A stretch of 63,060 nucleotides of DNA, from assembly GCA_002702895.1 (NCBI GenBank), contig PACX01000025.1, positions 11,695 through 74,754 on the forward strand. The letters run 5' to 3'. A model generated the notes under the pieces. The model was not told the origin of the DNA and ran no database searches. It worked only from the letters and a program-made list of their open reading frames with translations. This DNA comes from Flavobacteriaceae bacterium (GTDB lineage Bacteria; Bacteroidota; Bacteroidia; Flavobacteriales; Flavobacteriaceae). Positions within the stretch are counted from its first letter, which is position 1, and each line of letters opens with the position of its first letter. Below are positions 56,541 to 59,913 of this stretch, piece after piece. A program made the position numbers and the translations under genes.

Positions 56541-57143
56541 TTAGTACTTATAGTAAAGCTCAACTCTAGATAGGTTATTATTTATATTTGCTGCTTCAGA
56601 CCACATATCTTTGGGAGATGTGGTTTTTAAATTAAACTGCATACCTGTTCTTTTAAGAATAACAGACTGACCGCCTATAGCAGATGGATAATCTTGAGGA
56701 CTTCCATAAGAACTAACGCAGTTATCATTGCCACAACCTAAGATACCTACAATATCTCCCTGAGAAATTTGAATATCAACAATAATTTTTCCGACAGCAA
56801 CCCCAGCACTATAATGAAGGACAGTAAAATTATTTGTTGTTGAAGAATAAGCTGGAGGAGTTTGATTTAATTTAACGACTGCTACACTTTGATTGCTAGT
56901 AGCTACTGTTGGATCAACTTTTAATCCAGTTATACAAAAGTCTATTGGTGCAGTAAAATAGTATCCTCTTACGTTATTAGGGAAAGTACCAGCTTGGTTT
57001 GGAAGTGCTAGTTGAGTTTCAGATGAACTACAGCTTGCCTCATCTTTTTTATAATGTACCCCTTGTTGGCTTGGTAATATTCCTGTCTGGGAGTATGAAC
57101 TAAAATGAAAAAATATTATTAATAAAAAGAGAAATAATTTCAA
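56541..57143 (-). CDS. Unknown secreted protein
   Basis: I do not recognise this 200-residue protein. It has a signal peptide (hydrophobic to SSYS, cleavage near residue 19) and a beta-rich, Ser/Thr/Asn-rich body: GYYFTAPIDFCITGLKVD, SVAVVKLNQ, NNFTVLHYSAG and SQGDIVGILGCGNDNCVSSY. The four cysteines (38, 69 and a close pair CGNDNC) could form disulfides. The layout resembles adhesion or surface domains in T9SS cargo, but no C-terminal sorting domain is seen. Start is TTG at 57141-57143. It is divergent from the ion-channel gene with 110 bases between. Confidence 0.75.
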   Translation of the reverse strand: MKLFLFLLIIFFHFSSYSQTGILPSQQGVHYKKDEASCSSSETQLALPNQAGTFPNNVRGYYFTAPIDFCITGLKVDPTVATSNQSVAVVKLNQTPPAYSSTTNNFTVLHYSAGVAVGKIIVDIQISQGDIVGILGCGNDNCVSSYGSPQDYPSAIGGQSVILKRTGMQFNLKTTSPKDMWSEAANINNNLSRVELYYKY

Positions 57144-57253: not shown

Positions 57254-58402
57254 ATGTATAAGATTTTAAAGTTTTTTATCTATTTTTTAATAATTTCAAA
57301 TTTTTCATTTGGTCAAACAAATGATTCTATTCCAGATATAGATTATAAAAGATATGGTACTCCATACTATCCAGAAGTTAAACTAGTTGAAGAAGATTCT
57401 TTAGAGTGGCCAATGCTATTTGATGTGTCAATGGATTTTAAAGACATTAAAGATCTGGATGTAAAAAACAATTTCTTTATTGGCAAATTTGTTTTCGACA
57501 TTTATTCTAAATATGATTTAGAATATAACTCTATTAGTGGAGATTCACTTGATCTATCTCATCCAGAGTGGGTTCAATTATATTTAAAAGAAAGTGAAAT
57601 AAGGTATTTTGGTGACCTTGTATATGCAAAAAGAGATATTATTGAAGATTCTGTATTGTTTTATGACGATAAATTTACAAAGAGTTCAATGTACGTTGAA
57701 AATGAATTTGATCACAGTTGGGATTTAGGAAATTACCCTTTTGATACTCAGAAATTATTATTTGAATTTCAAAGCACAGTGGATACATCATTAGTCAAAA
57801 TCCAGCCTAGCTTGAAATACAAAAGTACATTTGAAACAAATATGAGAAATCTTACCGAAGGATATGAAATAAAAGATGTTACCTATAGAAGTGATTATAA
57901 AACTAGTATGTCAACTGTATTACAGATGACACCAACATTAAAAAGACCAGAAGTAACTCAAACCTTTATAGTTGAGTTAAACATAAAAAGAAAAGGTGGT
58001 GTTTTATTTTTTAAAATCTTTACTGGTGGAATTTTGTCTTATTTTATTTCCTGTATGGTATTTCTAATTCCACTCAGAGAACTAGAATCAAGAATTAACC
58101 TTGCAGTTGGTGGTATTTTTGGAGCAATTGGAAGTAGTGCATTTGTTTATGAGGTCCTTCCAGTAGTAAATGTCTTTACAAAAGCAGATGCTATCAATAA
58201 TTTGATAATTGGAATGGTTGTTTTTAATATTTTAATACTTCTTCTACAACAGGGAACTTTTAAAAGAATTAATGTTGATGGAAAATATTTATACCAAGCG
58301 AATGAAATAAAATGGTTTAGAAATTTACAGGATAGTAAATTCTCTTTCTTTTATTCAATTTTTGCGTTTTTTGTTTTATTATTCGCAATACTATTATGGT
58401 AA
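57254..58402 (+). CDS. Prokaryotic pentameric ligand-gated ion channel (Cys-loop receptor superfamily) homologue
   Basis: A 382-residue protein laid out like GLIC/ELIC. There is a signal peptide (1-20, FSFG then Q). A beta-rich extracellular domain (21-248) carries the superfamily loop WDLGNYPFDTQ (156-166); the cysteines that give the family its name are absent, as in other bacterial members. Four helices follow: M1 about 249-274, M2 281-303, M3 312-333, M4 363-382. M2 ends in EVLP (300-303), like the M2-M3 turn of known channels. The M3-M4 loop is short (about 30 residues), as in bacteria. Counting back from P303 puts Glu278 at -2', Arg280 at 0' and Phe289 at 9'. Ligand is unknown. It overlaps the sulfatase region by 7 bases if that gene's first ATG is used. 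Confidence 0.85.
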   Translation: MYKILKFFIYFLIISNFSFGQTNDSIPDIDYKRYGTPYYPEVKLVEEDSLEWPMLFDVSMDFKDIKDLDVKNNFFIGKFVFDIYSKYDLEYNSISGDSLDLSHPEWVQLYLKESEIRYFGDLVYAKRDIIEDSVLFYDDKFTKSSMYVENEFDHSWDLGNYPFDTQKLLFEFQSTVDTSLVKIQPSLKYKSTFETNMRNLTEGYEIKDVTYRSDYKTSMSTVLQMTPTLKRPEVTQTFIVELNIKRKGGVLFFKIFTGGILSYFISCMVFLIPLRELESRINLAVGGIFGAIGSSAFVYEVLPVVNVFTKADAINNLIIGMVVFNILILLLQQGTFKRINVDGKYLYQANEIKWFRNLQDSKFSFFYSIFAFFVLLFAILLW

Positions 58403-58437
58403 AACAAATTTTAACTACTCCCCCTACTCTTATTACT

Positions 58438-59913
58438 ATGAAAAATAAATACCTAAAAATTCTTTTGTTATTTATATTAATAATATCCTATTCGTGTAAA
58501 AAAGAGAATTTAAATCAACCTAATATTATAGTTTTTATTGCTGATGATGTTAGTTGGGATGATATTGGTTCTTATGGAAATAATTTTGTAAAAACACCCA
58601 ATATAGACAAATTAGCAAATGATGGTATTAGATTCACAAATACTTACCTAACAACTAGTTCATGTAGTCCGAGCAGAAACTCAATAATTACAGGTCGCTA
58701 TCCTCATAATACAGGTGCTGCTGAACTTCATACTGAACCGCCATTAGATATGATTTCATTACCTGAGATTCTAAAAGAAAATGGATATTATACTCTGCAA
58801 GCAGGGAAATTTCATATGGGAGAATATGCCAAAAGAGGATTTGATAAAGTTCATGATAAAAAAAAAGTTAATGGTTTAGGAGGAGAAGATTATTGGGTTA
58901 AAGCTGTTGAAAACCGACCAAAAGATAAACCTTTTTTTATGTGGCTTGCTTCTTACGATGCTCACCGAATATGGGGAGAAAATGATTTTTCTGGAACCCA
59001 CAATCCTGATGAAATTAATGTACCTGAATACCTTATTGATGGTCCCTTAACAAGAAAAGATCTAGCTGATTACTATGATGAAATAACTCGATTTGACTTT
59101 CATATTGGTAAAGTTGTAGAACTATTAAAAAAACAAAATAAATTTGAAGAAACAATAATCATCGTAATGGCTGATAACGGAAGACCCTTTCCACATAGTA
59201 AAACGAGATTAAATGACCAGGGTATTAAAACTCCTTTTATTATTCACTATCCCAAGATAAATTCATTAAATAATAAAGTAAACAATAGTTTAATAAGTTC
59301 TATAGACATAGCACCTACTTTAATTGATTTGGCTAACATAGATACTTTTGAAAGATTTCAAGGATTTAGTTTTAAAAGAGTTCTATTAGAACCGTCGAAA
59401 GAGTTTAGAAATTATGTTTTTGCTGAACATAATTGGCATGATTATGAAGCATATCAAAGAATGGTAAGGGATGAACGTTATTTATATATAGTGAATTCCC
59501 GCCCTGAATTTCCTCAATTAGGGCCATTAGATGCAATTAATAGCAAAACTTATATAGAACTTAGAGAAGCTTATAAAAAAGGTCTTATAAGTGATAGGCA
59601 ATCTGATATATTTACTAGTCCTCGACCAAATGAAGAACTTTATGATTTAGATAATGACCCATACCAGTTCAATAACTTAATCAATAGTCAAAATCTACCT
59701 AAAAACTATGAAATATTAAAAAGTAAGCTTAATGATTGGATTATAAATACTGGTGATGACCTTCCTAATTCAATAACAAAAGATTGGTATCTAAAAGAAC
59801 AGGAACCCTATAACGAAACTTCATTGTTAAAAACTAAAGATCACGGAGTTCGAGGAATTATGCCTGGTAGTTTATCCAATGCTGTTAAAAATAACAACAA
59901 AGGACCCTTTTAA
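58438..59913 (+). CDS. Sulfatase (heparan N-sulfatase-like), lipoprotein
   Basis: A 491-residue type I sulfatase. The formylglycine motif CSPSR lies at 76-80 (C76 is oxidised by a maturase encoded elsewhere); ADD (35-37) gives two calcium ligands, and DNGRPFPHSKTR carries further active-site residues. GRYPHNTGAAELH resembles the sulfamidase/S1_8 group, which acts on sulfated glycans. I choose the ATG at 58438: it gives a clean lipoprotein signal (ILIISYSC, C20). An earlier ATG at 58396 overlaps the channel gene stop by 7 bases and would add 14 residues. It is probably surface-exposed, acting on algal or animal sulfated polysaccharide. Confidence 0.9.
   Translation: MKNKYLKILLLFILIISYSCKKENLNQPNIIVFIADDVSWDDIGSYGNNFVKTPNIDKLANDGIRFTNTYLTTSSCSPSRNSIITGRYPHNTGAAELHTEPPLDMISLPEILKENGYYTLQAGKFHMGEYAKRGFDKVHDKKKVNGLGGEDYWVKAVENRPKDKPFFMWLASYDAHRIWGENDFSGTHNPDEINVPEYLIDGPLTRKDLADYYDEITRFDFHIGKVVELLKKQNKFEETIIIVMADNGRPFPHSKTRLNDQGIKTPFIIHYPKINSLNNKVNNSLISSIDIAPTLIDLANIDTFERFQGFSFKRVLLEPSKEFRNYVFAEHNWHDYEAYQRMVRDERYLYIVNSRPEFPQLGPLDAINSKTYIELREAYKKGLISDRQSDIFTSPRPNEELYDLDNDPYQFNNLINSQNLPKNYEILKSKLNDWIINTGDDLPNSITKDWYLKEQEPYNETSLLKTKDHGVRGIMPGSLSNAVKNNNKGPF

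Follow-up and report, generated by a model that had tools for sequence, protein, structure and literature searches.

Among described systems, the closest to the locus considered here are GLIC (Gloeobacter) and sTeLIC, prokaryotic pentameric ligand-gated ion channels (pLGICs) devoid of cysteines, and, as regards gene arrangement, ELIC (Dickeya), a pLGIC whose gene adjoins that of an enzyme. The remark on the latter association reportedly comes from Zimmermann and Dutzler. A putative decarboxylase beside ELIC may, as suggested in PMC3119659, process the ligand, and Tasneem et al. (PMC549065) describe operons in which pLGICs are accompanied by PBP-II proteins, by a Cache domain and by a Na+/H+ symporter, and suggest that the channels serve chemoreception; reasoning about pLGICs from their enzyme neighbours is already published. 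According to a statement in PMC4795631, in 2016 a biological role was known for none of the pLGICs of unicellular organisms. We analyzed a stretch of 63,060 nucleotides (the window) from Flavobacteriaceae bacterium (assembly GCA_002702895.1, contig PACX01000025.1, positions 11,695 to 74,754), in which a gene for a 382-residue protein (57254-58402, plus strand) is directly followed on the same strand by a sulfatase gene. The protein is a real, divergent pLGIC, and the probable overall explanation of the locus is a pLGIC subunit with an old, loosely linked sulfatase neighbour. Among the literature matches listed, all of them open-access papers, there was no published pairing of a flavobacterial pLGIC with a sulfatase.

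The receptor-channel plan that the original prediction had recognized in the 382-residue protein holds in all its parts. By inspection, residues 1-20 (57254-57313) resemble a signal peptide, and the structural model has a helix at residues 2-18. The beta-rich ectodomain, delimited from the model, spans residues 52-246 (57407-57991) and contains the Pro-loop WDLGNYPFDTQ (residues 156-166, 57719-57751) without flanking cysteines. It is followed by four transmembrane helices: M1 (residues 249-271, 57998-58066), the pore helix M2 (274-301, 58073-58156), closed by EVLP, M3 (310-335, 58181-58258) and M4 (361-382, 58334-58399). Nine further relatives from the genus could be aligned at 54-92% identity, the channel of genome G301 being the closest (92%). 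The ratio of nonsynonymous to synonymous substitution rates (dN/dS) is 0.070 between the window and G301, and 0.063 between the window and G307. Judged by these sequence comparisons, the channel is a conserved gene rather than a chance open reading frame (ORF).

Most residues typical of the superfamily are in place. The [F/Y]PxD motif of the beta6-beta7 loop is present as YPFD (residues 161-164), with P162 and D164 invariant in a 69-row alignment; in Table 1 of PMC4795631 the proline of this motif is absolutely conserved. The arginine preceding M1 (94% in the same table) is R246, also invariant in the 69 rows, and the proline of the M2-M3 loop (88%) is P303, kept in at least 90% of them. The aromatic residue of beta9, listed as W in 71%, F in 16% and Y in 11% of sequences, is Y204, which is invariant in the ten genus rows and aligns with W of several distant relatives. 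The exception is the M1 proline at position 14'. Twelve residues past the pre-M1 arginine, where GLIC carries Pro, the window protein has Gly258, and this glycine is invariant in a 17-row alignment. It is a listed substitution (Pro 77%, Gly 5%) of a feature that is common and non-defining. The cysteine pair of metazoan Cys-loop receptors is missing as well: the ectodomain has no Cys, and the sole cysteine of the protein is C267 in M1. The predicted structure, in which residues 105-139 have a predicted local distance difference test score (pLDDT) below 50, shows a beta-sandwich ectodomain and four transmembrane helices, and its fold match to GLIC and sTeLIC covers residues 49-382, although identity to these channels is only about 14-16% over the aligned length.

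A number of results weigh against this assignment. With the single window protein, Pfam channel models gave no match and a search of PDB sequences returned no pLGIC, and the A1 profile alone likewise found no PDB chain. The NCBIfam scores are far below cut-off (18.0 versus 500 bits for LGIC_1, NF033918; 16.7 versus 280.2 for TIGR00860). The first AlphaFold2 model, obtained from 10 alignment rows, was poor, with a pLDDT of 46.5. Nevertheless, the relation to the Cys-loop superfamily claimed in the original prediction is backed by profile, conserved residues and the GLIC/sTeLIC fold match alike, and it adds a divergent marine flavobacterial branch of pLGICs that is overlooked by curated models.

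The nearest outgroup that we found consists of Bacteroidota pLGICs with M2 of the R-GL-VGGLFAA-GNKY type (L031 and others). They share the M2 register and the Pro-loop with the window protein, to which they are 17-21% identical in alignment A2 and 13-22% in A3; their M3-M4 stretch is shorter and their gene neighbours differ. With the A2 profile, pLGICs were detected in 26 genomes out of 196 from one family and in 34 out of 395 from the class. A channel ORF was obtained from 62 of 73 loci (63 ORFs once duplicates were removed), and 59 of the 63 entered A3; L080 and L109 were left out for their long extra parts, L035 and L089 as truncated. The ORFs of L080 (1069-2928) and L109 (1273-3492), 620 and 740 residues long, enclose the match to the pLGIC profile, which suggests extra N-terminal or other domains. 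G1156, with four matches in its genome, has two pLGIC genes in tandem (L099 356-1345 and 1381-2394), 32 bases apart. On viral contigs, none of 366 stretches matching the pattern encodes a relative of the channel.

Within the genus, conservation is concentrated in the membrane: 18 of 23 columns are invariant in M1, 16 of 28 in M2 and 21 of 26 in M3, compared with 50 of 195 in the ectodomain. Pro303 at 23' together with Arg280 at 0' implies a gapless M2 register. In this register position -2' is occupied by Glu278 (Glu or Asp in all ten genus rows), 2' by Asn, Ser or Thr, 6' by Gly and 9' by Phe289. The acidic ring at -2' and the single ring of phenylalanines at 9' suggest that the pore probably conducts cations. 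GLIC, too, is acidic at -2', whereas the Phe at 9' and the GG...G..G pattern of M2 (G286, G287, G290, G293), like the Gly at M1 14', set the window protein apart from GLIC and sTeLIC. This abundance of glycine weighs against the reading of M2 as a cation pore, and Jaiteh et al. (PMC4795631) caution, for prokaryotic channels, that this region is generally insufficient to predict selectivity. The protein would most likely be a homopentamer of the inner membrane whose ectodomain lies in the periplasm, where binding of a small solute between ectodomains may open the M2-lined pore.

The sulfatase gene announced in the original prediction is indeed present directly downstream (58438-59913, plus strand). 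It encodes a 491-residue protein with a lipoprotein-type signal (SYSC, by inspection), a PF00884 match of 172.7 bits (cut-off 25) and the C-x-P-x-R motif of formylglycine-dependent S1 sulfatases in the form CSPSR (58663-58677), common to the window enzyme and its two aligned orthologues (L005 and L044). The motif, an SGSH_C match of 59.7 bits and the top five rows of a search confined to PDB sequences, which are S1_8A and S1_8B entries and SGSH, place the enzyme closest to S1_8/SGSH, a likeness suggestive of its subfamily. SulfAtlas assigns N-sulfoglucosamine sulfohydrolase to S1_8 (PMC5066984), and conversion of N-sulfoglucosamine to glucosamine is described for a Pedobacter heparinus member of S1_8 (PMC10154612).

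Two starts had been proposed for the sulfatase: ATG 58396, overlapping the channel stop, and ATG 58438. The longer ORF (58396-59913) does exist and contains the sulfatase. However, both orthologues begin at the position matching 58438, and together with the lipoprotein-type signal this makes 58438 the most likely start; the overlap was therefore rejected. The genes are consequently separated by a 35-base spacer (58403-58437), which carries CCCTACTCT at 58422-58430. Downstream of the channel, a similar motif also occurs in G301, G307 and G308, and in G312 it lies 73 bases past the stop; the CCTACTCT type occurs at the spacer position in the window, G301, G307 and G308. By chance, 60 bases would contain the hexamer CTACTC 0.008 times. 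Within the 160 bases read, the motif was not found in G298, G311, G315, G316 or G297, the last of which has the tandem. The enzyme would be a periplasmic lipoprotein, probably co-transcribed with the channel and stemming from an old two-gene unit.

How tightly the two genes are linked was assessed in 22 genomes of the genus. Most of them are incomplete (51-94%), so absences of channel or sulfatase are soft; the window genome (G000, 1.87 Mb) has an estimated completeness of 94%. The channel occurs in 11 of the 22 genomes, and among 296 genomes drawn from the order only in the window's own. Ten of the 11 channels have a readable 3' flank (the G305 copy runs off its contig), and the sulfatase is next to the channel in three of these: G000, G308 and G297. 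In G297 (L004 8001-9233) the sulfatase is cut at the contig end. A sulfatase close to that of the window (E<=1e-60) is encoded in five of the 22 genomes, including G298 and G305, where it occupies a different site, common to both. The two closest relatives of the window genome, G301 and G307, have no sulfatase beside the channel, and in one of them the deletion is visible. In G301, the 102 bases between the channel and Band7 (L001 8148-8249) encode the last 23 residues of the sulfatase, with a score of 98 versus a maximum of 36 over 60 shuffles. Because of this scar, the pair must predate the split between the window lineage and G301, and the sulfatase was deleted in the latter; a recent insertion into the window lineage was rejected on the same grounds. 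The 73-base interval of G307 retains the spacer motif only, with no protein-level remnant (best score 27, null maximum 33). Scores also stayed below the null maximum in G298, G316, G315 and G312, and the 19-base interval of G311 is too short for such a search. The expectation that the two genes stay adjacent in relatives is therefore borne out as regards age and fails as regards retention.

Loss of the enzyme left the channel under selection. In the comparison of G301 with G307, neither of which has the sulfatase there, dN/dS of the channel is 0.090, and five neighbouring genes give 0.054-0.101 for the same pair; the channel is as constrained as its neighbours. Since constraint persists where the sulfatase is deleted, absent or elsewhere, the channel does not need this sulfatase. 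Two observations complicate the picture of one old pair passed on by descent. The channel frame of G297 has one internal stop, reflecting either decay or an assembly error. In addition, the channel tree places G316 with G308 and G297 (support 1.000), while the marker tree, comprising 15 taxa without G297 and with several weak nodes (0.000-0.51), places G316 with G305 (1.000). Because the two trees partly disagree, transfer of the locus from one lineage to another is possible. Beyond the window and G301, how far back the pair goes we can only infer; its age is uncertain, and G308 and G297 may have it by descent or by exchange.

The next best account, possible and in fact compatible with an old, loosely linked pair, holds that the genes are chance neighbours: the 3' flank of the channel would be prone to rearrangement, with the sulfatase one of several genes that landed there without a functional tie. 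The flank does vary. With operon names assigned through inspection of ORFs, it holds a his-type operon in G311, arg-type genes in G298 and G316, and no long ORF before Band7 in G301, G307, G315 and G312; in G300, which lacks the channel, a his-type operon lies between the same flanking genes. Sulfatases are also common, with 30 PF00884 matches in the window genome and 15-25 in each of eight genus relatives, so one more sulfatase neighbour is weak evidence. However, the G301 scar and the shared spacer motif indicate a single old arrangement rather than repeated landings. The three channel-adjacent sulfatases moreover form one group, albeit with modest support (0.835), and the same-strand spacing is short. 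In G310, a 2,989-residue ORF (L052 2348-11314) adjoins the CSD gene, which is the channel's place in relatives. On the minus strand of the window, a secreted-looking 200-residue protein (56541-57143) has no Pfam match above cut-off, and tblastn at 1e-8 found no match to it in the compared loci of relatives.

We consider it unlikely that, as originally suggested, the ectodomain senses a product of the adjacent sulfatase and ion flux reports the breakdown of sulfated glycans. The product would be sulfate, a sugar or, were the enzyme an S1_8 N-sulfamidase, glucosamine with its amine set free. Such coupling would fit the old tandem, the precedent of ELIC and the co-occurrence of the two genes: a channel match is found in all five genus genomes with a close sulfatase versus 6 of 17 without (hypergeometric 0.018, uncorrected for kinship and incompleteness). 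It would also fit a distant case, G548, in which the sole PF00884 sulfatase of the genome is encoded 29 bases downstream of a pLGIC gene (L034 2-1333 and 1363-2325, minus strand). In the 60 regions read around distant pLGIC genes (see below), the naive chance that a lone sulfatase is the gene after a channel is 20/818=0.024. Yet the nearest kin of the G548 enzyme are carrageenan-type and related sulfatases, and its subfamily is not the S1_8-like one of the window, so no common product is implied, and G631, of the same genus as G548, keeps the channel with no PF00884 sulfatase at all. The window neighbour is a sulfatase and not a decarboxylase as in ELIC, and it is dispensable in close relatives. 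The adjacency is real, but its retention in only 3 of 10 flanks, its absence in the two nearest relatives, the unchanged constraint on the channel and the wealth of sulfatases in the genome weaken the case for a tight partnership.

Somewhat more doubtful is a broader proposal, that the pLGICs of this Bacteroidota clade form periplasmic receptor-enzyme pairs in which an exported enzyme of the same operon makes or removes the ligand, possibly a primary amine, much as a synaptic receptor is paired with a transmitter-processing enzyme. Here the enzyme would be an N-sulfamidase-type sulfatase; elsewhere it would be a penicillin amidase, an amine oxidase, an Amidohydro_3 protein or a membrane protein resembling heparan-glucosaminide acetyltransferase (HGSNAT). 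ELIC beside its decarboxylase would be another case. The relevant data come from the surroundings of distant channels, 60 regions with 879 called genes in all; hits that were weak and partial (G745, G1182, G1204, G1129, G968 and G1022 among others) and some copies at contig ends (G859 and G875) did not enter this set. One sulfatase was found in the regions, that of G548. The hidden Markov model used for detection was built from five sulfatases including this one, so its recovery was assured, and sulfatases of other subfamilies may have escaped notice. In the short flanks, blastp queried with the window sulfatase also matched the G548 enzyme alone. A close same-strand downstream gene is no commoner after channels (21 of 59) than after other genes (306 of 772). 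Ten of 20 such neighbours were scanned: they comprise a penicillin amidase, a PALP enzyme with a CBS domain, Amidohydro_3, CinA, S9 and S8 peptidases, an HGSNAT-like membrane protein, a sulfatase, an amine oxidase and one protein without a match. In L114, L125, L158, L167 and similar loci the short-gap neighbour is a penicillin amidase, an Amidohydro_3 enzyme, an HGSNAT-like protein or an amine oxidase, and several of these enzymes act on amines or amides. By a first signal heuristic, which mislabelled one CBS enzyme, 10 of 20 neighbours are exported versus 118 of 290 controls (p=0.28); by a second, designed once the first result was known, 14 of 20 versus 100 of 290 (p=0.0019), or 7 of 12 versus 74 of 217 when counted by family (p=0.083). 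The enrichment is suggestive only, a lead and not a result. Finally, it is very improbable that the pLGIC fold is retained without a gated channel, as a fold-only sensor or non-conducting relic: the glycine-rich M2, the Gly in place of the M1 proline and the distance from all curated models searched would fit, but conservation is strongest in M1-M3 (invariant in 55 of 77 helix columns), in line with a pore that matters, dN/dS is very low, and R280, L283, V285 and G286 are conserved in at least 90% of the 69 rows.

For a marine flavobacterial pLGIC with an old, loosely linked sulfatase beside it, the deletion scar shows that constraint on the channel can outlast the loss of an enzyme gene next to it. 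This speaks against inferring the function of such a channel from a single neighbour. Should the wider pattern of exported-enzyme neighbours hold up in a larger test, concrete ligand candidates for pLGICs would follow from it.
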